Under the pieces are notes generated by a model. It saw only the letters and a program-made list of their open reading frames with translations, did no database searches and was not told the DNA's origin. DNA of 64,000 bases, taken from NCBI RefSeq assembly GCF_014191305.1, contig NZ_JACHWJ010000004.1:1-64000 (forward strand). Direction: 5' to 3'. Shown here piece by piece: positions 3,753 to 45,740 of the stretch (position 1 is its first letter; every line of letters starts with the position of its first letter). Both the position numbers and the translations under genes were made by a program. Origin of the DNA: Pseudoclavibacter helvolus. GTDB lineage: Bacteria > Actinomycetota > Actinomycetes > Actinomycetales > Microbacteriaceae.

Positions 3753-3814
3753 ATCGCTGCCAGTCAAGTTGCCCTTTCCGCGGCGCGCTGAAGGGCGAAT
3801 CGACTGGCAGCGAT
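3753..3814. repeat. intergenic palindrome, family ATCGCTGCCAGTCA
   Basis: Inverted repeat with perfect 13-bp arms ATCGCTGCCAGTC (3753-3765) and GACTGGCAGCGAT (3802-3814) around a GC-rich centre. It lies between the convergent ends of the histidine kinase and folA genes. The same arm word recurs three times at 22.5 kb, so this is a dispersed repeat rather than only a local terminator. There is no T-run on either side. Confidence 0.8.
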
Positions 3815-3887
3815 CTGCTTCCGTGCGCGGGTCGGCGCGGCGCCTCACCTCGCGGCGTCGACCGTGTGGCGGCTCGAGTCGAGGCGG

Positions 3888-4544
3888 TCAGGCGGAGCGG
3901 GTGAGGCTCAGGAAGCGGTAGCGGATGCCCGTGCGGGACTCGAGCCAGCCTTCTGACGGCTCGCGAGCATCCACCCGCCACTCGTCGCCAGACCAGTCGG
4001 GGGCGTAGGCGTCGCCAGCGACCTCGAGGTCGATCTCGGTCACTTCGAGGCGGTCGGCGCTAGCGATGGCCTCGCGGTAGAGCTCGCCGCCGCCCATGAT
4101 CCAGGCTTCGGTGGGAGCGCCCACGGTGCTGCCGTCAAGGGCAGAGCCAGCTCCGTCGGAGTCGGAGCCGGAGCCGGAGCCGGAGCCGCTGAAGCTCCCG
4201 GCCAGGGCGATCGCATCCTCGAGCGACCCTGCACGCTCGGCGCCCGCGGCAACCCACTCGTCCTGCCGGGTCACGACGATGTTGCGCCGCCCGGGCAGCG
4301 GCCGGAATCGTTCGGGAAGCGAGTCCCAGGTCTTGCGCCCCATGATGACGGGGTGCTTCACCGTAACGGCTTTGAAGTGCGCCAGGTCCTCAGGCACATG
4401 CCACGGGATGCCGCCCTCGGCGCCGATCACACGGCCATTCGCCTGCGCCCAGACCAGCCCGACCGTCAGGCCGTCGCCGGCGACGCCCTCTGTCTCCGCA
4501 CGGACAACATCCGCCGCCCAGGTCGCGCCTGCCGCGTCGCTCAT
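3888..4544 (-). CDS. folA: dihydrofolate reductase with low-complexity insert
   Basis: Reduces dihydrofolate to tetrahydrofolate with NADPH. The core starts near residue 26 ([16 protein letters not shown]) and shows [36 protein letters not shown] and [11 protein letters not shown]. At 218 aa it is longer than the usual 160-170. The excess is a 25-residue N-terminal extension and an insert at about residues 117-145 containing a Ser-Gly dipeptide run, coded by a short GAGCCG-type repeat. The start ATG overlaps the thyA stop (ATGA), so it is coupled to thyA, whose reaction produces the dihydrofolate it uses. Confidence 0.93.
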
Positions 4545-5350
4545 ACGGCGATCGCCGCGCGGATCGTGGGGTGGTGCTGGTAGTTCGCGACCTCGAAGTC
4601 CTCGAACTCGTAGTCGAAGATCGTGTCAGGCGTGCGGTGGATGCGCAGCTGCGGGTACGGGTACGGGTCACGCGTGAGCTGCTCCCGCACCTGCTCCTCG
4701 TGGTTGTCGTAAATGTGGACGTCGCCGCCCGTCCACACGAACTCGCCGGGCTCGAGGCCCGTCTGCTGCGCAACCATGAGCGTCAGCATGGCGTAGGAGG
4801 CGATGTTGAACGGAACGCCGAGGAAGAGGTCGGCGCTGCGCTGGTAGAGCTGGCATGAGAGCTTGCCGTCGGCGACGTAGAACTGGAACAGCGCGTGGCA
4901 CGGGGGCAGTGCCATGGTCGAGATCTCGGCGGGGTTCCAGGCGGTGACGATGTGTCGGCGCGAGTCGGGGTTGGCGCGGATCTGCGCGACGACCTGCTCG
5001 ATCTGGTCGATGTGCCCGCCCTCGGGGGTGGGCCAGGAGCGCCACTGCACGCCGTAGACGGGGCCGAGGTCGCCGTTCTCGTCGGCCCACTCGTCCCAGA
5101 TCTTCACTCCGCGCTCTTGCAGCCAACCGACGTTCGAGTCGCCGCGCAGGAACCACAGCAGCTCGTAGGCGATCGACTTGAAGTGCACGCGCTTCGTCGT
5201 GATGAGCGGGAAGCTCTCCGACAGGTCGAACCGCAGCTGGCGGCCGAACACGCTGCGCGTCCCCGTGCCGGTGCGGTCGGACTTGTGCGCGCCGTTCTCG
5301 AGGACGTCGCGCAGCAGGTCTTCGTACGGGGTCAGGATCTCCGAAGTCAC
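4541..5350 (-). CDS. thyA: thymidylate synthase
   Basis: Makes dTMP from dUMP using methylene-tetrahydrofolate. At 269 aa it is the normal length. The active-site Cys is at 151 in [12 protein letters not shown]; other family motifs include the N-terminal [36 protein letters not shown] and the [10 protein letters not shown] region. It is first in a two-gene thyA-folA operon on the minus strand and overlaps folA by 4 bp. It is divergent from the epimerase-like gene at 5519, and the 168-bp gap between them presumably holds both promoters. Confidence 0.97.
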
Positions 5351-5518
5351 GTCCCGAGGATACGCCCCGGCGGGTCTCTGGTGACCCGTTGTGCACAGGT
5401 CAAGTCGCCAGGTGACATTCTCGGCTCATCCACCGTGAGCCGGCGCCGATGGGCACCCTCGACCTCGGATGGGCGACCGGTTCGGGAGACTCGAGGGAGG
5501 GGCACCTACGCTCGTGGG

Positions 5519-6373
5519 ATGAGCGTTCCCGCCACGAACCAGTCCGCGCCCGCCCGCCTCCTCATCGCTGGCTTCGGCAAACTCGGGGCGCGTCTGGCCG
5601 AGCGTTATTCGGCCAGGGGCACGCAGGTGTTCGGTGTGCGCCGCGGCGAAGTCGACGGCGGGCCAGGCGTGAAACTCCTTCGCGCCAACCTCGCCGACCC
5701 CGAACTGCCGCCCCTCGCCCTGCCCGGCGTCGACGCGCTGGTGGTCACCCTCCCGCCGCCCGTCATCGACGGGGAAATCGCCCCCGCCGGGTATTTGCGC
5801 TCGCTCGAGAACCTCGCGGCTGGTCTGCCGAGCATTCCTGGGCGGGTCGTGTTTGTATCGTCCACTCGCGTATTCGAAGGGCGCGGCGACGGCACCGAGA
5901 TCAGCGAAGCGGACGCGCCCGCACCGACCTCCGTGAGGGCCCGTTCGCTCGTGAATGGCGAACGGAGCGCGGTTGACTTGTTTGGCGCATCCATCATTCG
6001 GCCCTCGGGGATTTACGGGCCGGGCCGGGACAGCCTCATCCGGCGGGTCCTAGCGGGGGACCCGATCCAGTACGCGCGCCGCACGAACCGGGTGCACGAG
6101 AGCGACCTCGTGCGCGCGATCGAGGCGATGCTCGACCGCGCCGACGCCCCCACGCTCCTGCACGCGACCGACGCCGGACCCGCGCCCCTCGGCGACGTGG
6201 CCACCTTCGTGGCCGAGCAGCTTGGGGCCCCCGCGCCCCCGCGCATCCACCCCGAAGAGCCGAGCGGCACTCTCCTGAGCGGCAAGCGGATGCACGCCCT
6301 CCTCTGCTCGCTTGACTACCCGAGCTACCGGGACGGGTACGCGGAAATCATCCGCGCGCGTGGGCGGCACTAA
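5519..6373 (+). CDS. NAD(P)-dependent epimerase/dehydratase-like protein
   Basis: Extended-SDR-like Rossmann protein, 284 aa. The dinucleotide site is LLIAGFGKLGARLAERY near the N-terminus. Later strand motifs are VDALVVTLPPP and VVFVSSTRVFEG, and the segment RPSGIYGPGRDSLIRR is typical of sugar-epimerase relatives such as the YeeZ group. The classical YxxxK pair is not obvious, so its catalytic activity is uncertain. I chose ATG 5519 because the fold begins about 13 residues later; the purine-rich GAGGGAGG is about 18 bp upstream, too far for a normal ribosome site, so a leaderless start is possible. The frame stays open upstream to 4895 only as an antisense shadow of thyA. Confidence 0.82.
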   Translation: MSVPATNQSAPARLLIAGFGKLGARLAERYSARGTQVFGVRRGEVDGGPGVKLLRANLADPELPPLALPGVDALVVTLPPPVIDGEIAPAGYLRSLENLAAGLPSIPGRVVFVSSTRVFEGRGDGTEISEADAPAPTSVRARSLVNGERSAVDLFGASIIRPSGIYGPGRDSLIRRVLAGDPIQYARRTNRVHESDLVRAIEAMLDRADAPTLLHATDAGPAPLGDVATFVAEQLGAPAPPRIHPEEPSGTLLSGKRMHALLCSLDYPSYRDGYAEIIRARGRH

Positions 6374-6395
6374 GCGCGGCTAGCCGGTCCGCGCC

Positions 6396-9272
6396 TCAGG
6401 CGCTTGGTGCCCGCGTCGCCTCCTCAAGCAGCTCCACGACGTGCCGGTAGCTTTCACCGGTGGCTCGGCTCATGCCCATCTCGCAGGTGCGGTTGCAGGA
6501 GGCGTGCGCATCGGCGCCGAGGCTTGCCACTTCGGCTGCCTCCGCCACTGTGGCCGAGGCGGTCAGCTCCGGGTGGAGCATGCCGCGGTCGCCGGCGAAC
6601 CCGCAGCAGCCCCACGAGTCGGGCACGGTGACGGTGCTGGCGACGGCGGCGCCAACCGCATTCAGCGCAGGGTTGAGACCCATCTGCGTTGAGGAGCAGG
6701 TTGGATGCAGCACCAACGACTCGACGACCGGCTCGACGGTACCGAGCTTCGGCAGCACAACCCTCGCGACAAACGAGACGAGATCTTCAACCGAGGCACT
6801 GAGCCCGGCCCCCTCGACGATGTGCGCGAAACCCTCGGTGCAGCTGGACGCGTCGCTGATGATCGGCAGGGCGCCGTCGTTGCTCGCGACGCGGATCGCC
6901 TCGGCAACCCGCGTCGACATCGTCTTGTGGCCGCCCGTGTACCCCTTCGACGACCAGGGGGTTCCGCAGCAGAGCGACTCGATGCCCTGCGGGACCAAAA
7001 CGCGCACCCCGGCGCGCTCGAGGAGACGCTCGAACGCGCTCGCGACGCCGATTCCGGTGCCCTCCGCCCCGAACATGCTGTTGACGCAGGCCGGTAGGTA
7101 CACGGCGACGGGGTCGCCGTTGCCGGCCCCGATCGTCCCGGCGAGTGGTCGCCTGGCGCTCCCGCCTGCGGGCAGGTCGTCGGCGTACTGCGGCAGCATG
7201 TCGGCGCCCACGAGGGCGCGACCCACGTTCGTGGTGCCGGTCACGAGTGGCGCTGGCAGTGCATCCGCGACGGTCAGCGCCATCGAACCGGCACGCGTTA
7301 CCGGCCCCCAGGCCTTCGCCGCGAGCTGCCAGCCAGCCGCCAGAACCGGGTTCTGGCGCTCGCGGCGCAGGCGCTTCACGAGCTGACCGGTGTCGATGAG
7401 CACCGGGCAGGCCGTCACGCACATGCTGTCGACGGCGCAGGTGTCGATGCCGGAGTAGTCGTAGTCGCGCTCGAGCTCGGCGAGCAGCTCGCGGCTGCCG
7501 TCAGCCTCAGCGCGCGCCATGGCGCGACGCGTGACGATGCGCTGCCTCGGCGTGAGCGTCAGGTTCTTGCTTGGGCACACCGGCTCGCAGTACCCACACT
7601 CGACGCAGCGGTCGGCCTCAACCTCGATGGTCTCGGCGTGCTTGAGGTCTTTGAGGTGGGCGTTCGGGTCGTCGTTGATGATGACCCCCGGGTTCAGCAT
7701 GCCAGTCGGGTCGCACAGCCGCTTCAGCTGCACCATGACGTCGTAAATCTCGTCACCGTACTGGCGGCGAACATAGGGTGCCATGACGCGCCCGGTGCCG
7801 TGCTCGGCCTTGAGGTTGCCGTGCGCGCCAAGCACAAGCTCGACCATGTCTTCCGTGAAGTCGACGTAGCGCCCAAGCGCCTCGTCGCCTTCGAAGCGGT
7901 CAGTGAGCATGAAGTGGATGTTGCCGTCCTTCGCGTGCCCGAAGATGACGCTGTCGCGGTAGTTGTATTTCGCGAAGAGGTCCTGCAGGGCGTCGCAGGT
8001 TGGTGCCAGCGACGGCACCGGCACAACGATGTCCTCGAGCAGCGCCGTCGTGCCCGTCGGGCGGGCCCCGGCGACCGAGGCGTAGAGCCCCTTGCGGAGC
8101 TTCCACGCGGTGGCCCGCTCCACCGGGTTTGTTGAGAGGCGCACCGGGGAGCGGAGGTCGAAACCGCCGAGCGCACCCTGGCCGCCTGCGGCAAGCTCGT
8201 CCAGCTCAGCGCGGCTGTCGGCGTGGTACTCGATCAGCAGGGCGGCCTCGCCCGCCACCTCGAAGCCACGGATCTCGGCCGGTGCGTCGTCGAAACTCTG
8301 CCCGACGCGGATGCTCGTGGCATCCATCAGCTCGAGGGTTGCGGCCCTCGTCGCCACGAGTTCCGGGAGCGCCCTGGTCGCCTCGTCGAGAGACGAGAAG
8401 ATCGCGAGCCCCGTCGTGATCTCGCGGCGGATGGGTACGCAGCGGTACGTTGCCTCGGCCACAAACGCGAGTGTGCCCTCGCTGCCGATGATGAGGTGCG
8501 CAAGCAGTTGCACGGGCGACTCGAAGTCAAGGAAGGCGTTGACCGCGTACCCCATCGTGTTTTTCATCGCGAACTGCCTCGCGATGATCGACACGGAGGT
8601 CGGGTTGTCGAGCACACGCCGCCGCAACCGCAGGAGCCCGTCAACGAGCGCGGGTTCCTGGGCCCGGAGTTGTGCATCCGCGTCCGCCGCCGCCGTGTTG
8701 ATGGTGGTGCCGCTCGGAAGAACGATGATCATCGATTCAAGCGTCTGGTAGGTGTTCTCGGTGATGCCGCAAGCCATGCCGCTCGAGTTGTTTGCCACGA
8801 CGCCCCCGATTGTGCACGCCGCCTCGCTGGCCGGGTCTGGCCCAAGTCGGTAGCCGTGCCGCAGGAGCCGACCGTTCACCTGACGGACGGTTGCCCCCGG
8901 TTGCACCCGCACGCGGGCGCCGCCGTCGAGGACTTCGATGCGCTTAAACCGCTGGCGCACGTCAACCAAGAGGTCGTCACCCGATGCCTGCCCGGAGAGG
9001 CTTGTCCCACCCGATCGGAACGTGACGCGCGTCTGGGTGGCGCTCGCCGCGCGCAGAATCGCAGCAACCTCAGCGGTGTCGGCCGCGATGACGACCGCCT
9101 GCGGGGTGAGGAGGAAGTGCGAGGCGTCGCTCGCGTTTGCAACCCGGTCGATCGCGCGCCGCTTGATGCGCTCGCCGTCGCCCACGGCGGCAGCAACCAG
9201 CGAGTGGATGCTCCCATCGCCGGCCTGGACGGGCGTCGACTCGCTTGGGGTCAGGGTCTGGGTCACGGCCAT
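6396..9272 (-). CDS. D-lactate dehydrogenase, FAD-oxidase/iron-sulfur fusion
   Basis: Membrane-associated oxidation of D-lactate or a similar 2-hydroxyacid, passing electrons through iron-sulfur clusters. The 958-aa protein is a fusion: FAD-binding PCMH domain (about 50-285, with TFRSGGTSLSGQ and GGVVANNSSGM), FAD-oxidase C-terminal domain, two ferredoxin-type motifs (CVECGYCEPVCP near 555 and CAVDSMCVTACP near 610) and CCG-type cysteine domains (LPACVNSMFG near 722, GCCGFAG near 882). ATG 9272 overlaps the last 10 bp of the lactate permease gene and begins MAVTQTLTP. The frame is open further upstream only inside the permease. Operon position next to a lactate permease supports lactate as substrate; glycolate-type acids are an alternative. 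Confidence 0.92.
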   Translation of the reverse strand: MAVTQTLTPSESTPVQAGDGSIHSLVAAAVGDGERIKRRAIDRVANASDASHFLLTPQAVVIAADTAEVAAILRAASATQTRVTFRSGGTSLSGQASGDDLLVDVRQRFKRIEVLDGGARVRVQPGATVRQVNGRLLRHGYRLGPDPASEAACTIGGVVANNSSGMACGITENTYQTLESMIIVLPSGTTINTAAADADAQLRAQEPALVDGLLRLRRRVLDNPTSVSIIARQFAMKNTMGYAVNAFLDFESPVQLLAHLIIGSEGTLAFVAEATYRCVPIRREITTGLAIFSSLDEATRALPELVATRAATLELMDATSIRVGQSFDDAPAEIRGFEVAGEAALLIEYHADSRAELDELAAGGQGALGGFDLRSPVRLSTNPVERATAWKLRKGLYASVAGARPTGTTALLEDIVVPVPSLAPTCDALQDLFAKYNYRDSVIFGHAKDGNIHFMLTDRFEGDEALGRYVDFTEDMVELVLGAHGNLKAEHGTGRVMAPYVRRQYGDEIYDVMVQLKRLCDPTGMLNPGVIINDDPNAHLKDLKHAETIEVEADRCVECGYCEPVCPSKNLTLTPRQRIVTRRAMARAEADGSRELLAELERDYDYSGIDTCAVDSMCVTACPVLIDTGQLVKRLRRERQNPVLAAGWQLAAKAWGPVTRAGSMALTVADALPAPLVTGTTNVGRALVGADMLPQYADDLPAGGSARRPLAGTIGAGNGDPVAVYLPACVNSMFGAEGTGIGVASAFERLLERAGVRVLVPQGIESLCCGTPWSSKGYTGGHKTMSTRVAEAIRVASNDGALPIISDASSCTEGFAHIVEGAGLSASVEDLVSFVARVVLPKLGTVEPVVESLVLHPTCSSTQMGLNPALNAVGAAVASTVTVPDSWGCCGFAGDRGMLHPELTASATVAEAAEVASLGADAHASCNRTCEMGMSRATGESYRHVVELLEEATRAPSA

Positions 9273-13846: not shown

Positions 13847-13948
13847 CAATTTAGGGGCGATTTGACGACGGCGCCTCGATGGCGGGGCCGGCGCCCCCGG
13901 AGTGAGGAGGCGGCCCGTGGGGGCGGCGCCCGCTTTGCCCCTAAATTG
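13847..13948. repeat. intergenic palindrome, family CAATTTAGGGGC
   Basis: Perfect 12-bp arms CAATTTAGGGGC (13847-13858) and GCCCCTAAATTG (13937-13948) flank a GC-rich core that is itself partly self-complementary (GGCGCC on both sides). It sits between the convergent ends of the amidohydrolase and GntR genes. The arm resembles those at 34.4 and 45.6 kb, which also start CAATT and run into a GGG core. Confidence 0.75.
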
Positions 13949-16236: not shown

Positions 16237-16728
16237 GTGTCCACGAGTTCCCTTGAAGCACAGGCTCAGGAGGCCGAGGTCGGCAGCGGCGCGCTCCTCC
16301 CGGACGGCCCCGTGCGTGCCCGCTCCGCGAAGATCGGCGCCATCGGCGCTGGCGCCATCATGGCAGACCAGCATCTCGCCGCCTACAACGAGGCCGGATT
16401 CCCCGTCGTCGCCATCGCCTCCCGCACGAAGGGGAACGCCGAGCGCGTCGCCGAGCGGTGGAACATCCCGACCGTGCACGACACCCCGGAGCTCCTCATC
16501 GAGGACCCGGACGGCGCGGTGCTCATGCTCGGCACGATGTTCGCTCCCATCGTCGACCGCGACCAGCCGGACCACGGCTTCACGCACCACGCCGGTGACG
16601 TCGTTCGCATCTCTTCGCCAGCCCTCGGTAGTCTGGTGGGCCAGGTACAGAGCAGTGAGGGGTGTGCGCCGTGGACATTCGGGGTCGCAGCGCTCATGCG
16701 CAATCTGGCGGCCAGAAGGCTCCTGTGA
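16237..16728 (+). pseudogene. chimeric remnant: Gfo/Idh oxidoreductase N-terminus fused to FAH-family C-terminus
   Basis: A 163-codon frame with a GTG start behind GAAGGAG. Residues about 30-88 are the beginning of a Gfo/Idh/MocA NAD-dependent oxidoreductase (GAIGAGAIMADQHLAAYN, then VVAIASRT and AERWNIPTVHD). From about residue 92 the sequence changes to what I recognise as the last 70 residues of a fumarylacetoacetate-hydrolase family protein (DGAVLMLGTMFAP, GFTHHAGDVVRISSPALG, APWTFGVAALMRNLA). Both halves are far too short to be active. The simplest reading is a deletion joining two neighbouring genes of a sugar-acid catabolic operon, in frame by chance. Its stop overlaps the LacI gene start (GTGA), so it still provides translational coupling. 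Confidence 0.72.
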
Positions 16729-17753: not shown

Positions 17754-17973
17754 CCGCGAGCGAGCCGCCGCCGCGTCCGGGCCGTCGCCTACGCGCCGCT
17801 GCCTATGCGCCGCCGCTGCCTACGCGCCGAGCGGGGCCAGTGTTGTGGCGTTGTGCACCCGGGGGACGCGCGGACAGCGTTTTCCCACAACCCTGTCGGC
17901 GCTGACGTCCGGCGCTGACCTTCCGCGAGGCCCTCGGGCGGCGAGGCCCTCGGGCGGCGAGCCCCGCCGGCAG

Positions 17974-18029
17974 AGAGTTGTGGCGGATCGCGCTTGGCGC
18001 GCGCGCTAACTGCATTCCGCCACAACTCT
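17974..18029. repeat. intergenic palindrome, family AGAGTTGTGGCG
   Basis: Perfect 14-bp arms AGAGTTGTGGCGGA (17974-17987) and TCCGCCACAACTCT (18016-18029) with a 28-nt loop that contains further GC complementarity. It lies between the convergent ends of the LacI and acyl-CoA ligase genes. A weaker related pair, GTTGTGG (17842-17848) and CCACAAC (17885-17891), precedes it, and a second full copy of the family is at 21.5 kb. The rest of the 305-bp gap holds only GC-rich repeats. Confidence 0.8.
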
Positions 18030-18058
18030 GCGCCTTGAGGTGAGCGCCCCGCCTCGCC

Positions 18059-21349: not shown

Positions 21350-21528
21350 TGCGGATGCGCGTCTGGTTGGGATCTGCCCAGGCGCGACGGCGGCGCCTCG
21401 GCAGTGTCCGACCCTACGCGACTCCCGGCGCTCGGCGTCCCGCCTCGCCATGTTCCGCGAAGGTGAGGCGCCCGCCCGCCCCCGCCCGCCCCGCATCCGC
21501 CCGCCCCGCCCCCGCATCCACCGCGCAC

Positions 21529-21584
21529 AGAGTTGTGGCGTGTTGCGCTTCCCGTTCGGGACAACAGCAACACGCCACAACTCT
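21529..21584. repeat. intergenic palindrome, family AGAGTTGTGGCG (second copy)
   Basis: Perfect 18-bp arms AGAGTTGTGGCGTGTTGC (21529-21546) and GCAACACGCCACAACTCT (21567-21584) with a 20-nt loop. The first 12 bases of the arm are identical to the copy at 17974. It sits 59 bp before the point where the oleate hydratase remnant begins. The rest of the 21350-21642 gap is C-rich, low-complexity DNA without a gene. Confidence 0.85.
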
Positions 21585-21642
21585 GCGGGCCTGCGGGCCT
21601 GCGGGCCTCCGGGCGCCAGCCGGGCGACGGCGCCGGACTTAG

Positions 21643-22506
21643 CCCGCGCCCATCGTCACCGACCGCGGCGGCGCCTGGTCGCTGTGGAAGAACCTCGCAG
21701 CCCAGGACCCGGCGTTCGGACGCCCGGAGAAGTTCTGCGAGAACATCCCGGAGGCCAACTGGACGATCTCGGCCACCGTCACCCTCACCGACGACAAGAT
21801 CGTCCCGTACATCCAGAAGATCACGGGCCGCGACCCCCGCGACGGGAAGATCGTCACGGGCGGACCCTGCAACTTCAAGGACTCGTCGTGGCTCTACGGC
21901 TACACCATGAGCCGCCAGCCGCACTTCGAGGCGCAGGACCCTCAGAAGGAGCTTGTTGTCTGGCTCTACGGCCTGTTCTCCGACAAGGAAGGCGACTACA
22001 TCAAGAAGACGATCCGCGAGTGCTCCGGGTGGGAGCTCACCGCCGAGTGGCTCTACCACATGGGCGTTCCGGTCGACCAGATCGACGACCTCGCCAAGAA
22101 CTCCGCGAGCACCCTGCCATGCAACATGCCGTACATCACGTCGTACTTCATGCCGCGCGCTGCCGGCGACCGCCCGCTCGTCGTGCCGGAGGGGTCGAAG
22201 AACCTCGCGTTCCTCGGCAACTTCGCCGAGACCGAGCGCGACACCGTCTTCACGACCGAGTACTCAGTGCGCACCGCCATGGAGGCCGTCTACACGCTCC
22301 TCGAGATCGACCGCGGAGTGCCAGAGGTGTTCGCGTCGTCGTTTGACGTGCGGACCCTCCTCAGCGCCGTCTACTACCTCAATGACCGCAAGAAGTTGCA
22401 CGAGGTGAAGCTGCCGTTCGCGGCGCGCGTGCTCGAGAAGGCCGCACTCGCGAAGGTCAAGGGCACGTACGTGGAGGAGCTCCTGCAGGACGCGAAGCTT
22501 ATCTAG
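21643..22506 (+). pseudogene. 5'-truncated oleate hydratase remnant
   Basis: The frame 21643-22506 encodes about 287 residues matching the C-terminal half of oleate hydratases (flavin enzymes that add water to oleate; formerly myosin-cross-reactive antigens). Recognisable pieces are GGAWSLWKNLAAQDP, PEKFCENIPEANWTISATV, KDSSWLYGYTMSRQPHF, NMPYITSYFMPRAAGDRP and FTTEYSVRTAMEAVYTLLE. Full proteins are near 590-640 aa, and here the FAD-binding N-terminal half is absent: an in-frame TAG at 21640-21642 precedes the homologous region and no suitable start exists. An internal ATG at 21907 would give only 199 aa. I judge it a non-functional remnant. Confidence 0.88.
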
Positions 22507-22520: not shown

Positions 22521-22629
22521 CCATCGCTGCCAGTCAAGTTGCCCTCTGAGAGGTGGGCAGAAGGGGTAAATGACTGGCAGCGATTGGCGGGTGGGGCTCT
22601 CGAAGCGGTCACTTGACTGGCAGCGATGG
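22521..22629. repeat. intergenic palindrome array, family ATCGCTGCCAGTCA
   Basis: Three copies of one arm word: CCATCGCTGCCAGTCAAGT at 22521-22539, the reverse complement core TGACTGGCAGCGAT at 22571-22584, and ACTTGACTGGCAGCGATGG at 22611-22629, which is the perfect 19-bp complement of the first. Alternative hairpins (first with second, or first with third) are possible. The same word forms the palindrome at 3753. It lies after the oleate hydratase remnant and before the next gene. Confidence 0.85.
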
Positions 22630-26127: not shown

Positions 26128-26146
26128 CCGGTCTGAACTCGAAAGC

Positions 26147-26189
26147 GGACTTGTGGTCGTCAAACTTCGAGTTTGACGACCACAAGTCC
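26147..26189. repeat. perfect 20-bp-arm palindrome with 3-nt loop
   Basis: Arms 26147-26166 (starting GGACTTGTGGTCGTC) and 26170-26189 (ending GACGACCACAAGTCC) are exactly complementary over 20 bp around a TCG loop, and pairing continues after one mismatch through AAAG/CTTT. This is the most perfect palindrome in the window. It could act as a terminator for the permease on the minus strand, but there is no T-run and its sequence belongs to the pattern of intergenic palindromes here. Confidence 0.9.
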
Positions 26190-26308
26190 ACTTTGGAGAC
26201 TGCGGCGTAGGTGGGGAGCGGGGTTGAGGTCGTTACGGGGCGGGATGCGCGACTGGGCCCGGATGTGTCGCCTGGCCCGGGATGCGCGGCTTGGGATGCG
26301 CGCGGCGG

Positions 26309-27643
26309 CTAGCGCGTGCCGCGCTCCGCATCCGCTGCCCCGTCGGCCCCGGCGACCAGGTCTTCGCCCGCGTCGTCGGCGTCGGATCCGCGGAGGCGGG
26401 CGATGCCGTTCATGAGGTGGTAGACGACAAGCGTCGCGACGGTGCCGAGCACGATGCCGCCGAACGTGACCTGGCCGCTGTTGATCGTGAAGTCGCCGAT
26501 CGCGACGATGAGGCCGACACCCGCCGTGAACTGGTTGGTCGGCGATGAGAAGTCGACCTTGTTCTCGAGCCAGATGCGCACGCCGATGATGCCGATGAGG
26601 CCGTAGAGCGCGGTCGTGATGCCGCCGAGCACGCCGCCGGGCACGCTCGCGATGAGCACGCCGACCTTCGGCGACAGGGCGAGGAGGATCGCGGCGATCG
26701 CGGCGACCCAGTAGGCGGCCGTCGAGTAGACGCGGGTCGCCGACATGACGCCGATGTTCTCGCCGTACGTGGTGGTGGGGGAGCCGCCGCCGAAGCCGGA
26801 GAGCACCGTCGCGAGGCCGTCGGCGAGGAGCGCCCGACCGGCCATGGGGTCGAGGTTGCGGTTCGTGAGCTGGCCGACGCCCTTGACGTGGCCGACGTTC
26901 TCGGCGATGAGCGCGAGCACGACCGGCACGAACATGAGGTAGACGAGCAGATGCTCGGCGGCGAAGACGGGAGCAGTGAAGGTCGGAAGGCCAATCCAGG
27001 CGGCGTCGTCGAGGCCCGCGAGGTCGACCTGGCCCGTGAAGGCGGCGACGATGTAGCCGACGACCACGCCGATGAGGATCGACAGGCGGCCGATCATGCC
27101 CTTGAACGCCACCGCGACGACGATGACGGTCAGCAGCGTGATCGACGCGACGAGCGGAGACGCCTCGAAGTTGTTCTTCGCGGCAGGGGCGAGGTTGAAG
27201 CCGATGAGCGCCACGATCGTGCCCGCGACGACTGGTGGCATGAGGAGGTTGATCCAGCGCGTGCCCGCGAAGTTCACGATGAGGCCGACGACCGCGAGGA
27301 GCGCGCCGACGACGATGATGCCGGCGAGCGCAACGCCCTGGCCGTCGGAGGCGACGGCCGCGAGGATCGGTGCGATGAACGCAAACGACGAGCCGAGGTA
27401 GCTGGGCACGCGGTTCCGGGTGATGAGCAGGAACAGCATCGTGCCGATGCCGGAGAAGAGCAGCGTCGTCGACGGCGGGAAGCCCGTCAGCAGCGGCACG
27501 AGGAACGTCGCGCCGAACATGGCGACGACGTGCTGCGCGCCGAGGCCGATCGTGCGCGGCCAGGTCAGCCGCTCCTCGGGCAGCACGATGTCGCTTGCGG
27601 GGACGTTCTTTCCGTCTCCGTGCAGTTTCCAGGGCAGTGCCAC
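26309..27643 (-). CDS. NCS2-family uracil/xanthine permease
   Basis: Nucleobase transporter in the cytoplasmic membrane, 444 aa with about 12-14 hydrophobic segments. Family marks are the N-terminal LGAQHVVAMFGATFLVPLLTG, the VALIGFNLAP region, ALIAENVGHVKGVG with the conserved Glu, GFGGGSPTTTYGENIGVM, and QFTAGVGLIVAIGDF near the end. It resembles UraA/PyrP uracil permeases more than xanthine permeases, but substrate cannot be fixed. It starts at ATG 27643, divergent from a second NCS2 permease; the gap between them carries a 12-bp repeat array. Confidence 0.93.
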   Translation of the reverse strand: MALPWKLHGDGKNVPASDIVLPEERLTWPRTIGLGAQHVVAMFGATFLVPLLTGFPPSTTLLFSGIGTMLFLLITRNRVPSYLGSSFAFIAPILAAVASDGQGVALAGIIVVGALLAVVGLIVNFAGTRWINLLMPPVVAGTIVALIGFNLAPAAKNNFEASPLVASITLLTVIVVAVAFKGMIGRLSILIGVVVGYIVAAFTGQVDLAGLDDAAWIGLPTFTAPVFAAEHLLVYLMFVPVVLALIAENVGHVKGVGQLTNRNLDPMAGRALLADGLATVLSGFGGGSPTTTYGENIGVMSATRVYSTAAYWVAAIAAILLALSPKVGVLIASVPGGVLGGITTALYGLIGIIGVRIWLENKVDFSSPTNQFTAGVGLIVAIGDFTINSGQVTFGGIVLGTVATLVVYHLMNGIARLRGSDADDAGEDLVAGADGAADAERGTR

Positions 27644-27782
27644 GGCGGTCTCGCTTCCAGGTCGTTCGGCGGGGATCGGCCTGCGCTGGGGAGCGGCGCG
27701 TGACCTCTACGAGATTAGGGGATCGCATGACCGCGCTCGCGCGCCAACCGTGGTGGCGTCTGCGCTGCAGCCGCCGCGCGAA

Positions 27783-27886
27783 AACTTCGGTGACGACTCC
27801 GGTGACAACTTCGGTGACAACTTCGGTGACAACTCGGCCAGATCTGTCGCCGAATCGGGCGATACGCGTCATCCGTCACCGAAATT
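27783..27886. repeat. 12-bp tandem repeat facing an inverted copy (family TTCGGTGAC)
   Basis: Four copies of the unit AACTTCGGTGAC (27783-27830; the second copy is GACTCCGGTGAC) face the inverted copy GTCACCGAAATT (27875-27886). Any unit can pair with the inverted copy, so alternative hairpins are possible. It lies in the divergent gap between two NCS2 permease genes. The right side CCGTCACCGAAATTC is repeated exactly at 34.5 kb. Confidence 0.8.
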
Positions 27887-27981
27887 CTCGCGCGGGCAGA
27901 GAGACGCTGCCGCGCCACGGGCATCCCGCGCGCTGACTACGCTTGAGCCTGTACCGCGAGCAGCACGATCAGGGGAGCCGC

Positions 27982-34420: not shown

Positions 34421-34489
34421 CAATTCGGGTGACGATTTCAGCTCTGCGGTATAAACTTCGTCTTCCGCCGCGCTTCCGTCACCGAAATT
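34421..34489. repeat. intergenic palindrome, family TTCGGTGAC
   Basis: Left arm CAATTCGGGTGACG (34421-34434) and right arm CGTCACCGAAATT (34477-34489) pair with two mismatches in 13; outer GCGCG bases extend the pairing. The right arm word CCGTCACCGAAATTC is identical to the one at 27873-27887. The remaining 34318-34618 gap contains no gene. Confidence 0.7.
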
Positions 34490-34618
34490 CGCGCGGCCAC
34501 GTCTCGGCACGAGATCGGTGGGCTGAATTAGAGGTCCGGGGCAAGTGTTCTCACAGCGGATTCACGCAATCCACCCGCACTCAGCCCGGCCGGGTTTGGC
34601 GCGCGTACCGTATCCGCC

Positions 34619-39784: not shown

Positions 39785-39823
39785 TTCTGATTCGCACGCA
39801 CGTCAGCTGACGTCAGCGTGAGC

Positions 39824-39860: not shown

Positions 39861-39920
39861 TGCGTGCTGACGCCGCGCGTGTCAGTTGACCTTCAGGCTG
39901 CATCTTCGGCGGCTAGCTGT

Positions 39921-39992
39921 CCAAGTTCCGTGATGATTCGCGTGCCTGGGCACGTGTCAGTGGCCTACGTCCGCTCTCGTCACGGAAGTTGG
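39921..39992. repeat. intergenic palindrome, family AAGTTCCGTGA
   Basis: CCAAGTTCCGTGA (39921-39933) and TCACGGAAGTTGG (39980-39992) pair with one mismatch in 13, around a core that has its own small hairpin (CGTGC/GCACG). The layout matches the other long palindromes in this window, and the inner words resemble the TTCGGTGAC family. Confidence 0.7.
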
Positions 39993-40002
39993 TCAAGACC
40001 AC

Positions 40003-40114
40003 CCGACCGCTCCGCCCCGACCGCTCCGCCCCGACCGCTCCGCCCCGACCGCTCCGCCCCGACCGCTCCGCCCCGACCGCTCCGCCCCGAACGCTCCGCC
40101 CCGAAGGCTCGGCC
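40003..40114. repeat. 14-bp tandem repeat, 8 units
   Basis: The unit CCGACCGCTCCGCC occurs six times perfectly (40003-40086), then once with one change (40087-40100) and once degenerate (40101-40114). It begins 10 bp after the palindrome at 39921-39992 and lies between the M23 gene and the pyrophosphatase gene. The unit is not a codon multiple, and no gene covers it. The array is pyrimidine-rich on one strand. Confidence 0.95.
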
Positions 40115-40145
40115 ACCGCGTGTTGGCAGGCACCGCGCGCACGAA

Positions 40146-40191
40146 GAAGCCCCGCATCCACCGCTGAACTCGTCAGGGGATGCGGGGCTTC
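40146..40191. terminator. bidirectional terminator hairpin before ppa end
   Basis: Perfect 14-bp arms GAAGCCCCGCATCC (40146-40159) and GGATGCGGGGCTTC (40178-40191). It lies 36 bp beyond the pyrophosphatase stop on the minus strand, where it is followed by TTCG, and after the repeat array on the plus strand. A rho-independent terminator for ppa is the simplest reading. Confidence 0.8.
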
Positions 40192-40226
40192 GTCAGCCTG
40201 TCGCCGGTCGAGCCGGCGGACGCTGC

Positions 40227-40715: not shown

Positions 40716-40951
40716 GGCGCTCCTTCGTTGCGCCTGGTGGCGCTCAATCTGTGTGGCTTGTCGGCGGGGCCCAGTTTGGCGCTGCTCGCCGCACGAAACC
40801 GTTGGTTTCGTTCGGGTTCAGGGTAGTGGATGCGCCCCGGCTGGGGGTGCGGATGCCTGGTTTCCGTCACCGGAGTCCTGGGTGCGTGGCGTGGATCGTC
40901 GTGTGACTCCGCGCTGTGGCCGTGGGGTGATCCCGTGGCATGCTGGTCTGC

Positions 40952-41212
40952 ATGCCTGATCTCAAGGAAGCGCTGCATGTCGACCCGTTCATCCCGCTCC
41001 GCGAGGGGACTGGTCAGGCGCTGCCGCACGCGCTGTCACTGGGTACGGCGCTGGTTGCCGGTGTGCAGTTCACGCTGCTCGGTGCGGCCCTGGTGAGCCT
41101 CCTGCGTCGCAAGCCGAACGAGGTTCGGGGTTCGCGACTCGCGTGGGGTGTGTTCTCGCTGGTGAACTTCATCGGCCCGATCTCGTACTTCCTTTTCGGC
41201 CGCAAGCGTTGA
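40952..41212 (+). CDS. small two-helix membrane protein
   Basis: 86 aa with two hydrophobic helices (LSLGTALVAGVQFTLLGAAL, then WGVFSLVNFIGPISYFLFG) and a basic C-terminus (FGRKR). The second helix, ending GPISYFLFGRKR, resembles the membrane part of phospholipase-D N-terminal (PLDc_N) small proteins. ATG 40952 is preferred; an in-frame ATG at 40940 has no better ribosome site. It precedes tilS by 95 bp. Function unknown. Confidence 0.7.
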   Translation: MPDLKEALHVDPFIPLREGTGQALPHALSLGTALVAGVQFTLLGAALVSLLRRKPNEVRGSRLAWGVFSLVNFIGPISYFLFGRKR

Positions 41213-41295
41213 GGTTGCTGCCAGGGGCGGCCTCGCGACGGCCGGTCCTTGAGGGATGTTCTGGCTCCGAGCGTGACGGTTCGCGCGGGCGCGTT

Positions 41296-41310
41296 TAGGC
41301 TGTACCTGTG
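41296..41310 (+). promoter_or_regulatory. -10 box and leaderless start of tilS
   Basis: TAGGCT at 41296-41301 is a good actinobacterial -10 hexamer and ends 6 bp before the GTG start of tilS at 41308, with no ribosome site between. This spacing fits a leaderless transcript beginning at the start codon. Confidence 0.55.
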
Positions 41311-42336: not shown

Positions 42337-42396
42337 CTTCACCCGTTCCGCACACCACGTTCGTTTTTCGAGCGTTGATCCACCCAGGGAGCCAGG

Positions 42397-42954
42397 ATGC
42401 GCGCCACTGATATTCCGAACGACGTCCGCGAGGTCCTCATCACGGAGGAGGAGATCCAGGCGAAGCTCGCCGAGATCGCCCGCCAGATCGAGGTCGACTA
42501 TGCCGAATGCGAGCCGCTGCTGATCGGCGTGCTCAAGGGCGCGGTCATGGTCGTGTCCGACCTGTCGCGCGAGCTGACGATCCCGCTGAAGATGGACTGG
42601 ATGGCCGTGAGCTCCTACGGTTCCGGTACCGAGTCGAGTGGTGTTGTCCGCATCCTGAAGGACCTGGACACCGACCTCACGGGCCGCCACGTGCTCATCG
42701 TCGAGGACATCATCGACTCGGGCCTGACCCTGTCGTGGCTCAAGAAGAACCTCGAGTCTCGTGGCCCAGCGTCCGTTGAGATCTGCACGCTGCTGCGCAA
42801 GCCGGAGCGCCTCAAGTCGGACGTGCCCGTGCGTTACGTCGGCTTCGACGTGCCCAACGAGTTCGTGGTCGGCTATGGCCTGGACTACGACGAGCAGTAC
42901 CGCCACCTGCGCGACATCATCGTGCTGCAGCCGCACGTGTACGGCGGCGAGTAG
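42397..42954 (+). CDS. hpt: hypoxanthine phosphoribosyltransferase
   Basis: Purine salvage enzyme, 185 aa. The PRPP-binding motif is HVLIVEDIIDSGLTL, with LLIGVLKGAVMVVSDLSREL before it and VGFDVPNEFVVGYGLDYDEQY near the end. The ATG has AGGGAG about 9 bp upstream. It is 60 bp after tilS, with a terminator hairpin downstream before ftsH. Confidence 0.97.
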   Translation: MRATDIPNDVREVLITEEEIQAKLAEIARQIEVDYAECEPLLIGVLKGAVMVVSDLSRELTIPLKMDWMAVSSYGSGTESSGVVRILKDLDTDLTGRHVLIVEDIIDSGLTLSWLKKNLESRGPASVEICTLLRKPERLKSDVPVRYVGFDVPNEFVVGYGLDYDEQYRHLRDIIVLQPHVYGGE

Positions 42955-42974
42955 GCGCACACGAACGACGAGTT

Positions 42975-43008
42975 CGAGGCGAGGGCACCGCTTGGTGTCC
43001 TCGCCTCG
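42975..43008 (+). terminator. terminator after hpt
   Basis: CGAGGCGAGGGCACC (42975-42989) pairs with GGTGTCCTCGCCTCG (42994-43008) over 15 positions (one G-U pair) with a 4-nt GCTT loop, followed by TTCCGTTCC. Confidence 0.85.
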
Positions 43009-43170
43009 TTCCGTTCCGAGGGACTTAAGCGCGGATGCTCCGAGCGCCTTCAGCGAACACTGGACACCCGTGTCGGTGGTGCCGAGTACCATGACTTTCG
43101 ATTGCGCGCCCTGGTGCGCTGGCGAAGAACCGGCTGAAAGGCACCGAGCACGCCACTCGAGTCTCGACTT

Positions 43171-45147
43171 ATGAAGCAAGTTACCAAGATCCTCAAGAGC
43201 CCGATCTTCATCGTGGTGCTCGCCGTGCTGGTCATCGGCCTCGGTTTCAGCCTGATCAACGGCAGCGGCACCCGCGAGGTGACGACGCAGCAGGGCCTCG
43301 AGCTCCTCCAGGACAAGAAGGCCGACAAGGTCGTCATCGTCAACGGTGACAACCGCGTTGATATGGAGCTGACGGCTGCCGACCCCGAGTACGGCCAGAA
43401 CGTCCAGTTCTACTTCGTGGATGCACGTGCCGCGGACGTCGTCTCGGCCGTTGACACGGCTGCTCCCGCCGGTGGCTACGACGACGACGTGCCCCAGCCG
43501 AGCTGGCTGCTCTCGGCCGTCAGCATCCTCTTCCCGCTGCTGCTCATCGGCTTCTTCATCTGGATCCTCTTCGCCGGCGGTCTCGGCGGCGGCGGTGGCC
43601 GTGGCGTCATGCAGTTCGGCAAGTCGAAGGCGAAGCTCGTCTCGAAGGAGAGCCCGCAGGTCACGTTCGACGACGTCGCGGGCGCCAACGAGGCGCTCGA
43701 GGAGCTGCAGGAGATCAAGGAGTTCCTCAAGGAGCCGGCGAAGTTCCAGGCAGTCGGCGCTCGTATCCCGAAGGGTGTGCTGCTGTACGGCCCTCCGGGA
43801 ACGGGAAAGACGCTGCTCGCTCGCGCTGTCGCGGGTGAGGCCGGCGTGCCCTTCTACTCCATCTCCGGCTCCGACTTCGTCGAGATGTTCGTGGGTGTCG
43901 GCGCGAGCCGCGTGCGCGACCTGTTCGAGCAGGCGAAGCAGAACTCGCCAGCCATCATCTTCGTCGACGAGATCGACGCCGTCGGGCGTCACCGCGGTGT
44001 AGGCATCGGCGGCGGCAACGACGAGCGCGAGCAAACCCTCAACCAGCTGCTCGTCGAGATGGACGGCTTCGACGGCTCGACGAACGTCATCCTCATCGCC
44101 GCGACGAACCGTCCGGACGTGCTCGACCCAGCCCTGCTCCGCCCGGGCCGCTTCGACCGCCAGATCGGCGTCGACGCACCGGACCTCGACGGTCGTGCCC
44201 GCATCCTCGGCGTGCACGCCAAAGGCAAGCCGCTGTCGCAGGACGTCGACCTTCGGGTCATCGCGCGCAAGACTCCCGGCTTCACGGGTGCCGACCTCGC
44301 GAACGTGCTCAACGAGGCCGCGCTGCTCACGGCCCGCTCGAACGCGCAGATCATCGACAACGAGGCCCTCGACGAGGCGGTCGATCGTGTCATCGCCGGC
44401 CCTCAGCGTCGCAGCCGCGTCATGAACGACCAGGAGCGCCTCATCACGGCGTACCACGAGGGTGGCCACGCTCTCGCCGCCGCCGCGATGCGCCACACCG
44501 ACCCGGTGACGAAGATCACGATCCTGCCGCGCGGTCGCGCCCTCGGCTACACGATGGTGCTCCCGCTCGAGGACAAGTACTCGGTCACCCGCAACGAGCT
44601 CCTCGACCAGCTGTCCTACGCCATGGGCGGCCGAGTCGCAGAGGAGATCGTCTTCCACGACCCGACGACGGGCGCTTCGAACGACATCGAGAAGGCCACG
44701 AAGACGGCTCGCAAGATGGTCACCGAGTACGGCATGACCGCATCCGTCGGCTCCGTGAAGCTCGGAGAATCCTCCGCCGAGACCGTCTACGGCCAGCAGG
44801 CTGGGGCCGGCCGCAACTACTCGGAGTCGGTCGCGGAGACCGTCGACCGCGAGGTGCGACTCCTCATCGAGCAGGCACACGACGAGGCGTGGAAGGTCAT
44901 CAACGACAACCGTGACATCCTCGATCAGCTGGCGGCTGAGCTCCTCGAGAAGGAGACGCTTGATCACGTCCGCCTCGACGAGATCTTCAAGCCAGTGCGC
45001 AAGCTCCCTGAGCGCCCCCAGTGGCTGTCGAGCCCCGACCGCCCCGTGAGCGCGCTGCCGCCAGTGGCGCTGAAGCCGCACATCCCGGTCGACCAGATGG
45101 ACCCGATCGAGCACGCGCAGGACGGCGGCGCCGAGCTCGGCTTTTAG
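43171..45147 (+). CDS. ftsH: ATP-dependent zinc metalloprotease FtsH
   Basis: Membrane-anchored AAA protease that degrades membrane and regulatory proteins, 658 aa. Transmembrane helix 1 at about 11-29, a short extracytoplasmic loop, transmembrane helix 2 at about 111-131. Walker A GPPGTGKT at 207-214, Walker B IIFVDEID at about 262-269, the second region of homology [20 protein letters not shown], and zinc site HEGGH at 429-433. The C-terminal tail is shorter than in some relatives. It is separated from hpt by a terminator and from the folate genes by a strong terminator and a small convergent gene. Confidence 0.98.
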
Positions 45148-45174
45148 CCGCTCGACCCACCTCGTACCAACGTA

Positions 45175-45212
45175 AAGAATGCAGGCTCCCAGCGATGGGA
45201 GCCTGCATTCTT
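45175..45212 (+). terminator. rho-independent terminator after ftsH
   Basis: Perfect 17-bp stem: AAGAATGCAGGCTCCCA (45175-45191), GCGA loop, TGGGAGCCTGCATTCTT (45196-45212), followed by CGTCTGTCTT. It is the clearest terminator in the window and can also serve the convergent small gene. Confidence 0.95.
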
Positions 45213-45243
45213 CGTCTGTCTTGCCGCCACGGAGCAGAATCTC

Positions 45244-45450
45244 CTAGCCAGGTCCGCCTCGCGACTTCTTCAGCGCTGCGACGGTAACGGCGATGCTGAC
45301 GGTCGCGAGGGGCACGATCAGCATGGCGAGCTGTAGCGAGTTCCAGCCCAACGCGAGGAAGAGCGCCGTCGCACCGACGGTGGCCAGCCACAGCGCTACG
45401 GCGAGCGGAGTGGATGCGAAACTCCGGAACCCGGGTCGTTCAGTCGTCAT
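45244..45450 (-). CDS. small two-helix membrane protein
   Basis: 68 aa with two hydrophobic helices (PLAVALWLATVGATALFLAL, then LAMLIVPLATVSIAVTVAAL) and a basic tail (KKSRGGPG). There is no strong ribosome site before ATG 45450, so this call rests on length, composition and its position in the otherwise empty gap after ftsH. Function unknown. Confidence 0.5.
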   Translation of the reverse strand: MTTERPGFRSFASTPLAVALWLATVGATALFLALGWNSLQLAMLIVPLATVSIAVTVAALKKSRGGPG

Positions 45451-45648
45451 GAGAACTGCTTCGCTCGTCGAATCCTTGGGGGGCCATCACACGGGGGCGA
45501 CGTGGCCGTCGTTCGAGCTTCTCGAGCCTCGTCGTTGCCTGTCAACCTGAGGAGGGTCTGACCAGGGAACGCGGACGAACCGCGCCGCCCGCGCCCAGCT
45601 CCGCGCTGCGCGCGCCCAGCTCCGCCCCGCTTCCCGCCCGACCCAGTT

Positions 45649-45740
45649 CAATTTTCGGGCGAACTGCCGTGACGCAGGATTGTGAGGCCCGGAATTCCGG
45701 GGGCGCTGGAACGCGAAGGTTCCATTTCGCCCGATAATTG
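45649..45740. repeat. intergenic palindrome, family CAATTTTCGGGCGAA
   Basis: CAATTTTCGGGCGAA (45649-45663) pairs with TTCGCCCGATAATTG (45726-45740) with one mismatch in 15; the centre holds a further CCGGAATTCCGG palindrome. It lies about 180 bp before the folE-folP start. The remaining 45451-45917 gap is GC-rich (GCGC and CGAG runs) without a gene. Confidence 0.8.

Follow-up and report, generated by a model that had tools for sequence, protein, structure and literature searches.

Long imperfect palindromes lie between the genes of a 64,000-nucleotide stretch of the Pseudoclavibacter helvolus genome (positions 1 to 64,000 of contig NZ_JACHWJ010000004.1; hereafter the window). We propose that they are probably copies of several unrelated, non-autonomous, dispersed palindromic repeat families, which some enzyme would have spread and which have been kept at gene ends. 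The units are dispersed and, among the genomes searched, restricted to one clade; they have a fixed length, sharp borders and no target duplication, lie near gene 3' ends and covary from arm to arm. The same plan recurs with unrelated sequence in other Micrococcales.

Palindromic families in the window

A sequence-only reading of this DNA had listed eleven hairpins and grouped them by arm word. Ten of the eleven are present; the second long hairpin placed at 26.1 kb was not found, the nearest among the 25 longest of 55 being 26688-26755, which is 73% complementary and sits within a permease gene (26309-27643). The grouping holds for the copies at 3.75 and 22.5 kb (family A) and at 18.0 and 21.5 kb (family B). 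Family A comprises a 62-nt unit at 3753-3814 (hairpin 3752-3815; fold z -6.8), in the convergent gap between genes for a histidine kinase and DHFR, and a 62-nt plus-strand unit at 22523-22584 (hairpin 22521-22629), which has a third arm on the same strand (22617-22627) 43 nt after the second and also adjoins the same right-hand gene in genomes G001 and G004. Family B has 58-nt units at 17973-18030 (hairpin 17969-18034), between convergent genes, and at 21528-21585 (hairpin 21523-21590; z -9.4), and a further diverged, weakly folding 58-nt copy at 17838-17895 that had not been listed. The pairing of 27.8 with 34.4 kb is likewise borne out, both spanning 68 nt between AA..TTCGG-type and CCGAAATT ends: the family F palindrome at 27784-27886 (hairpin 27774-27895) has a 5' half-arm repeated in 12-nt steps and an F counterpart in the same gap of G006, and the 68-nt F-type palindrome at 34422-34489 (hairpin 34421-34490) folds weakly, with no counterpart seen in the corresponding gap of G001, G004, G006 or G007. 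The proposed CAATT-GGG group is weak: of its six pairs, two span 102 nt and two 92 nt, and in both cases one pair lies in the window and the other in G006. Its F2-type members lie at 13847-13948 (102 nt), where family B is found in the same gap of G001 and beside the same left-hand gene in G004, and at 45649-45740 (92 nt), which is also in G006 and not seen in G001, G004 or G007. A family G palindrome (57 nt) at 26140-26196 (hairpin 26138-26198) has copies in the same gap of G001, G006 and G007 and none in G004; a family D palindrome (78 nt) at 39918-39995 represents a diverged subfamily with both arms changed, and D occupies the same gap of G001, G004, G006 and G007. Families A, B, D and G stand out clearly within the window, F and F2 less so; family C occurs elsewhere in the genome. 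Two previously unlisted hairpins, 40143-40194 and 45175-45212, look like ordinary terminators.

By one scorer, 11 hairpins in the window score at least 13 and nine of these are intergenic, while 20 local shuffles gave 0-5; across the clade there are 80 over 453 kb of stretches picked around family A matches, against 1 in one shuffled control. When 11 units were folded as RNA, seven gave z-scores of -4.1 to -9.6 with none of 200 shuffles as good. Weaker folds were given by 17838-17895 (z -0.70; 43/200 shuffles as good), 13847-13948 (z -1.94; 9/200), 27820-27885 (z -2.84; 3/200) and 34421-34490 (z -2.97; 0/200). We rejected density alone as a hallmark of the clade, as the window has 7.8 strong hairpins per 100 kb and 80 relatives' loci have 8.7. 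The feature that stands out is the repetition of palindromes rather than their density: of the relatives' 75 loci, 11 hold a repeated long palindrome (10 once the run-of-N artefact L062 is removed), versus 1 of 75 shuffled loci, which may be the same L062 artefact. Rfam searches recovered three tRNAs only from the window and, with 16 further loci searched to an E-value of 1, one tRNA above cut-off, the other 16 matches all falling below theirs.

Dispersal within one clade and parallels in other Micrococcales

The interpretation of these hairpins as dispersed repeats is upheld by divergence-tolerant searches, which find the families genome-wide. The exact-word search of the whole genome that had been suggested as a check is misleading: the one word tried, the exact family A 14-mer ATCGCTGCCAGTCA, occurs four times, all within the window, so that the check read literally would have counted against dispersal, whereas covariance models recover from this same genome at least 33 both-strand matches at about 17 places for A and at least 46 at about 23 places for B, both lower bounds because 150 candidates per genome were scored. 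Both models match the same five of 10 genomes of the genus and none of the other five, with E-values across the clade down to 1e-17. A BLAST search with the 22.5-kb A unit found 5 of 60 genomes, all of the same genus, and left the 50 from other genera without a match. At E 0.001, the 18.0-kb B unit used as a DNA query found 4 of 10 genomes; it missed G004, which the model then found. Families A and B are confined, among the genomes searched, to one clade of five sister genomes. The retention of several copies at orthologous gaps is as compatible with selection as with a selfish repeat, and different families occupy the same gap in different species at 13.8, 18.0 and 27.8 kb. No clean empty site was found between sister genomes, whose intergenic flanks have diverged too far for an insertion point to be defined.

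Three other Micrococcales genomes contain unrelated palindromes of the same plan in about 20 to 40 or more copies. The G002 family has a 47-nt core in all 24 copies, at least 80 both-strand matches (40 of 73 candidates scored) and stretches of 55-61 nt identical between copies; signs of recent movement are best sought there. No parent transposon is apparent between two pairs of G002 copies, where the two enclosed genes look unrelated by eye. Leifsonia shinshuensis has 55-nt units with at least 81 both-strand matches (40 of 70 candidates scored), and Sediminihabitans luteus has 40 both-strand matches to a unit of about 67 nt. Among the open-access matches listed, no title or abstract start reports such families in Microbacteriaceae or other actinobacteria.

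Position at gene ends and the terminator question

Families A and B are multi-copy, intergenic and near gene 3' ends. Family A occupies 32 convergent, 28 codirectional and 3 divergent distinct gaps and family B 30, 15 and 0, against a background of 61, 202 and 93, a convergent enrichment with Fisher p-values of 7e-8 (A) and 2e-11 (B). In a syntenic region of five genomes, a catalogued family is present in 13/25 convergent, 18/104 codirectional and 4/32 divergent gaps (p 0.0003); this set is fairer than several stretches chosen around matches, although its window had itself been flagged for hairpins and loose patterns were used for C (2 mismatches) and D (3 mismatches). Five of 88 B places were called genic, and the units show no strand preference. 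Two hits of the loose C and D patterns in the window, at 16457 and 44054, fall within genes and reflect chance.

The excess of copies in convergent gaps and their scarcity in divergent ones would also be expected if the units were primarily terminators of transcription in both directions, alike in sequence because recombination copies useful terminators from gap to gap and retained because termination is selected for, a possibility that we regard as real if unlikely. Consistent with it, 7 of 10 distinct convergent copies in L. shinshuensis lie within 20 nt of stop codons on both sides, G002 copies carry A5 directly before the core in 17 of 24 cases and T5 directly after it in 18 of 24, and the gaps at 13.8, 18.0 and 27.8 kb hold different families by species. 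The available text of PMC8355165 further makes the case for termination by hairpin clusters in the absence of a U-tract. On the other side, no T-tract is found next to families A or B, and termination depends on no fixed length and no common arm words. Codirectional copies show no excess of G.T over A.C mispairs on the sense strand (43:38 in A, 33:25 in B; pooled p 0.31), and therefore the mispair test gives no support for a hairpin role at the RNA level. Nor is there a sign that the families and ordinary terminators exclude each other in convergent gaps (3/13 vs 4/12, p 0.67). The earlier assertion that these hairpins are not terminators is nevertheless unproven: such a role is compatible with the evidence, and the A5/T5 tracts make it appear likely for the G002 sister family. 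Some gene-end copies probably act as bidirectional terminators. The I-shaped intrinsic terminators of actinobacteria are hairpins without a U-tract at gene ends, and in this the present families resemble them; the available part of their description (PMC12288462 and PMC8269248) does not present them as dispersed fixed-length families.

Fixed length, unit design and covariation of the arms

In each family, outer arms of about 8-12 bp on either side are conserved, the inner part varies and the total length is fixed. Family A measures 61 nt in 37 and 62 nt in 34 of 73 sampled places (71/73), and family B 58 nt in 87 of 88 places, a count of better-scoring matches that leaves out the weaker ones (47/197), which include 57-nt and 59-nt places and two shorter. 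One of these two shorter matches is family G, whose unit is 57 nt. Family C is 64 nt in 15 of 15 clustered places, outer extensions set aside, and family D is 78 nt long at 14 places, roughly 26 of its middle columns being poorly conserved. Searching for A arms alone at any spacing, with at most one mismatch per arm, gave 74 pairs at distinct places, 27 spaced by 50 nt, 27 by 51 nt and 20 by 91-94 nt (first arm to third arm), and no other spacing; 28 of the 73 A places carry the third arm, most often at 42 nt (22 places), otherwise at 41 nt (4) or 43 nt (2). B-type arm pairs at any spacing occupy 99 distinct places, 83 at 44 nt, 5 at 31 nt (these being family G) and 11 at others. B units also form arrays of five or six. 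Extended pairing into the flanks, suspected from single copies, proved to be near background (0.346 vs 0.337 in A, 0.371 vs 0.334 in B).

The inner arm parts vary among copies yet tend to match within one copy. Cells with both sides changed number 59 in A (shuffled 35.0 +/- 5.5), 57 in B (42.1 +/- 4.7) and 29 in D (19.6 +/- 2.8), with 0/500 shuffles as high in each case, and the arms agree at variable columns in 249/408 cases in A (146.5 shuffled) and 265/510 in B (176.6 shuffled). Two measures less sensitive to relatedness show no excess in B (79/500 and 48/500 shuffles as high) or D (336/500 and 362/500), and one of the two shows none in A (85/500).

This design bears on a further, rather improbable reading, in which the units are arrays of sites for one or more dimeric DNA-binding proteins in chromosome organization or boundary formation, the fixed length and the 42-nt third arm reflecting helical phasing. 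The constancy of total length despite a poorly conserved middle, the presence of a third arm 41-43 nt away, close to four helical turns, the two conserved boxes per half-site in families A and B and the lack of strand preference all suit such sites. However, a double-stranded site does not require variable positions to covary between arms, and more than one protein would be required for the several unrelated families in a genome.

Comparison with known repeats and the search for a mobilizer

The available text of PMC3733652 and PMC8266576 describes GTAG/CGTC REPs as many-copy intergenic palindromes, mostly between convergent or codirectional genes, lineage-restricted and in arrays, with a length of 20-40 bp, stems of 5-13 bp and a GTAG or CGTC tag. 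The label "REP-like" given to the window hairpins is apt for behavior (intergenic, palindromic, near gene 3' ends, in arrays), and the likeness extends to REPs/BIMEs as multi-copy, lineage-restricted families. It fails for structure, as the units here are symmetric and 47-78 nt long, and GTAG is absent from all 144 A and 176 B ends; CGTC occurs at 11/144 and 7/176 ends (raw counts, in a zone from 10 nt outside to 4 nt inside). The suggested search for a TnpA_REP-like gene came back empty: the Y1 transposase domain PF01797 is found in 0/10 genomes of the genus and 0/10 other Microbacteriaceae, with the positive control detected in 5/14 genomes. With no Y1 transposase found in these 20 genomes and no GTAG tag, the families are not REPs proper, and true REPs mobilized by a TnpA-REP (RAYT) transposase are a very improbable explanation in spite of the palindromic multi-copy units and the B arrays. 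According to the available text, the CGTC REP group also has no dedicated transposase (PMC3733652), and Actinobacteridae have only the IS200 subclass of TnpA-Y1 (PMC6006769).

Target-site duplications of 2-9 nt are near expectation for A and B. One B copy is an exception: its two ends share a 6-nt direct repeat, where 0.1 such cases would be expected. MITEs such as RUP, Correia and ERIC are likewise non-autonomous and intergenic with terminal inverted repeats; the families here differ in having no target-site duplication signal, no parent transposon seen and a unit that is palindromic throughout. The BOX elements of Streptococcus pneumoniae are modular intergenic repeats that carry no gene and whose inner modules vary in number. 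Family A with its extra 42-nt arms resembles these variable modules, but BOX differs in sequence, length and host, and here several fixed-length families share one plan. With integron attC sites in mind, integron integrase searches (TIGR02249) gave weak matches in 10/10 genomes, none over cut-off; the 14 controls gave similarly weak matches, again none over cut-off, and so provided no positive control. The search for a mobilizing gene, which covered Y1 and integron integrase, thus identified none. Families of repeated stem-loops, which our families resemble, are known from a systematic survey of 40 bacterial genomes (PMC2267715), whose available main text names Mycobacterium and Corynebacterium and never Leifsonia or Streptomyces.

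That the window hairpins are independent, unrelated terminators alike by chance is next to inconceivable: the exact family A 14-mer is indeed found in the window only, and single 11-mer A arms, of little value as evidence by themselves, barely exceed a reversed-motif control (525 vs 405 in 836 kb, 2 mismatches), but this reading is refuted by the clade-wide covariance-model matches, absent from five other genomes of the genus, and by the fixed arm spacings.

Proposed mechanism and implications

We infer both a mobilizing enzyme and a function for the repeat families. A trans-acting enzyme would recognize the folded or symmetric unit and copy it to new places; copies landing in coding or promoter DNA would mostly be lost, and those between stop codons would persist and may partly be recruited as bidirectional 3'-end boundaries (terminators or insulators). 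More tentatively, we raise the possibility of a class of mobile, fixed-length, wholly palindromic repeats widespread among Micrococcales, lineage-specific in sequence and with turnover from genus to genus, which a non-Y1, length-measuring enzyme would move and which would serve as interchangeable bidirectional gene-end boundaries.

TnpA-REP transposases explain REP-type repeats and are reported, in the available text of PMC6006769, to be missing from Actinobacteridae. Comparable repeats flourish here without a detectable Y1 gene, in strict sizes and as families that are unrelated from one lineage to another. It thus becomes testable what copies a symmetric unit of 47-78 nt without target duplication, and whether actinobacteria gain bidirectional gene-end signals from mobile DNA.

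Hairpins of the window

The window (G+C content 67.3% over 64 kb) comes from a 3.84 Mb genome in 12 contigs, and its genes, which were called approximately with a home-made codon-usage caller, are of an ordinary chromosomal kind: dihydrofolate reductase, a uracil-type permease, FtsH, a GTP cyclohydrolase/pterin-binding protein, inorganic pyrophosphatase and three tRNAs. Among named sequences, those that match the permease best belong to Microbacteriaceae. A single reading frame at 45738-47750 carries a GTP cyclohydrolase I domain together with a pterin-binding domain, a fusion of the folE-folP type. The sequence-only reading had listed at least eleven intergenic hairpins; ten of these eleven are present, no second hairpin could be located at 26.1 kb, and one further hairpin had been overlooked. 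Nine of the 11 window hairpins with a score of at least 13 are intergenic, and 20 local shuffles yielded 0-5 hairpins in total. Two strong hairpins near the ends of the pyrophosphatase and ftsH genes (40143-40194 and 45175-45212), which have related copies in the sister genomes, look like ordinary bidirectional terminators.

Palindromic families of fixed length confined to one clade

The palindromes constitute dispersed, clade-specific families of fixed length. We counted lengths over 100 searched sources (1.01 Mb), merging covariance-model matches to distinct places. Family A occupies 73 such places (37 of 61 nt, 34 of 62 nt, one of 64 nt and one cut at a contig end), while the best 150 of 197 family B matches give 88, of which 87 measure 58 nt and one 53 nt; the 47 weaker B matches are mainly 58-nt places or second strands, together with 57-nt and 59-nt units and two that are shorter, of which one is a family G unit. 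As a model may favour one length, counts based on the arms only weigh more. The arms of A (at most one mismatch, spacing 16-99 nt, distinct places) form 74 pairs, 27 at 50 nt, 27 at 51 nt and 20 at 91-94 nt, the last of which run from the first arm to a third. This third arm is found at 28 of the 73 A places (including the cut copy), 41-43 nt on within a searched range of 37-47 nt, and a wider scan recovers the same step in most clusters, with exceptions of 95 nt (locus L094) and 114 nt (L104, L105). B-type arms (spacing 11-109 nt, distinct places) give 99 pairs, 83 at 44 nt, five at 31 nt that belong to family G, and 11 scattered.

When the remaining hairpins were clustered de novo, families C, D (78 nt) and G (57 nt) emerged. 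All 15 places of C measure 64 nt by a hand count that sets outer extensions aside; in the arms-only scan seven pairs lie at 64 nt, 22 at 45 nt (its doubled inner box) and eight are scattered. The length of D is constant at 78 nt despite poor conservation of its middle 26 columns, and its arms-only scan gave 14 places at 78 nt, two others, and five at 72 nt that seem to represent a single conserved coding sequence. For G, eight of 38 pairs fall at its 47-nt core, with a loose pattern that also catches family B and chance matches.

The exact arm word shared by the 3.75- and 22.5-kb hairpins occurs genome-wide only in the window, but BLAST and covariance models find the families elsewhere. Among 60 relatives, the 22.5-kb unit has BLAST matches in five genomes, all of the same genus (the source genome G000, 5; its sisters G001, 10; G004, 14; G006, 4; G007, 3), and in none of 50 genomes from other genera. 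Covariance models built from 33 copies of A and 25 of B were run on 10 genus genomes, which are the whole search scope of the B model. In G000, G001, G004, G006 and G007, respectively, A has 33, 50, 45, 53 and 34 matches and B 46, 55, 28, 98 and 73, both strands counted; because a palindrome matches on both strands, places are about half these numbers, and they are lower bounds with 150 candidates scored per genome. The other five genus genomes have zero matches to either model. The permease is 96-98% identical to that of the window in the four positive sisters, and 61-70% identical or missing in the other five.

Arm covariation, borders and gene context

Three measures lie above both the shuffled and the slid controls in A, B and D: cells changed on both sides, cells paired and the covariation score. 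The number of pairs with changes in both arms is above these controls in A alone, and pair-type counts are not clearly above them in A, B or D. When six highly variable columns per family are compared, agreement between the arms reaches 249/408 cases in A against a shuffled mean of 146.5, and 265/510 in B against 176.6, although related copies are not independent and neither these nor the covariation figures are thus probabilities. Mispairs in the copies show no strand bias, a result that favours DNA, or use of either strand, over an RNA from a single strand.

Pairing falls to background at the unit ends, and no target-duplication signal was seen at the copies. Sampled gaps holding A are convergent in 32 cases, codirectional in 28 and divergent in three, and those holding B in 30, 15 and none, against a background of 61/202/93 (three A and seven B copies at stretch ends and five B copies called genic being left out). 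Likewise, across the 12 sources that cover the syntenic region in the five genomes (L126 omitted for G004), a catalogued family is present in 13/25 convergent, 18/104 codirectional and 4/32 divergent gaps of at least 30 nt. B also forms arrays, examples being a run of five units in G006 and one of six in L235 of G007; L137 10186-10842 and further arrays in these two genomes hold four to six units spaced roughly 90-200 bp. Some A and B copies lie at contig ends (G006 C3, C11, C27), as expected of assembly-breaking repeats. In G001 (C1 near 354540, L122), a B arm continues into a tract of ~28 G, and ~100 nt further on lies a C-rich tract that matches it; the homopolymer may be genuine or a product of misassembly.

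Turnover in the same gaps

Aligned gaps of the sister genomes give a picture of gain, loss and replacement, with some copies kept for long. The G unit at 26.1 kb differs by few changes across G000, G001, G006 and G007, though its flanks align poorly, and is missing from this gap in G004. At 39.9 kb all five genomes carry D, the window copy being of a different subfamily with both arms changed. At 13.8 kb the F2 type of G000 corresponds to B in G001 and, beside the same left-hand gene, in G004; near 18.0 kb G000, G001 and G006 have B and G004 has G. The F unit at 27.8 kb is common to G000 and G006, with another hairpin in G004 to which the G001 sequence is related, and the 34.4-kb unit is found in G000 alone among the genomes compared. 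At 22.5 kb the right flank is common to G000 and G001/G004 and the left flank of G000 differs, which raises the possibility of a rearrangement at the repeat. A 199-residue frame at 21907-22506 aligns to oleate hydratase (MCRA, PF06100) solely over the C-terminal portion of the profile (370-495 of 495), indicating a truncated gene. Separately, a 55-nt AT-rich palindrome, GATATCAGATATC..GATATCTGATATC, unusual in this G+C-rich DNA, is present in G001 (C5:155770), G004 (C17:129645), G006 (C23:211811) and G007 (C23:91310), and is possibly one conserved operator.

Relationship to REPs, and comparable units in other Micrococcales

The description of the repeats as REP-like holds for habitat and dispersal but not for membership of the REP family. 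The TnpA-REP (Y1) transposase (PF01797) was found in none of 10 genus genomes and none of 10 other Microbacteriaceae, with Leifsonia shinshuensis among the latter, in a search whose control detected it in 5 of 14 known genomes, and no GTAG tag was found at the ends of A or B. According to PMC6006769, IS200 is the only subclass of TnpA-Y1 carried by Actinobacteridae; PMC3733652 describes REPs as 20-40 bp long, mainly located in codirectional or convergent gene gaps, with CGTC REPs lacking a dedicated transposase. No integron integrase scored above cut-off, in a search run without a positive control. We infer that the families are mobilized by a putative enzyme.

Repeated long palindromes were seen in 10 of 75 loci of relatives after removal of an artefact; those at L007, L039, L040, L064 and L065 (a Microbacteriaceae genome, Sediminihabitans and Cellulosimicrobium) are unrelated. 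In Sediminihabitans luteus (Cellulomonadaceae) a unit of ~67 nt has 40 both-strand matches, with two more in Cellulosimicrobium cellulans (L064) and none in two other genomes. G002, a distant genome that the tool assigns to the same genus, has a unit of its own with a nearly identical 47-nt core in 24/24 examined copies, preceded by A5 in 17 and followed by T5 in 18 (counted by eye), with at least 80 both-strand matches (40 of 73 candidates scored) and zero in three other genomes searched. The unit of L. shinshuensis (Microbacteriaceae) is 55 nt in 33 of 38 arm pairs, these 33 including two places each seen twice in overlapping loci and one likely chance match within a gene; it has at least 81 both-strand matches (40 of 70 candidates scored) and zero in two other genomes searched. 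Of the 10 distinct convergent copies of this unit, seven have a stop codon within 20 nt on both sides. A bidirectional function at gene ends is plausible for such palindromes. Support for this putative role is strongest in the G002 and Leifsonia units, and in A, B and D the role is hypothetical.
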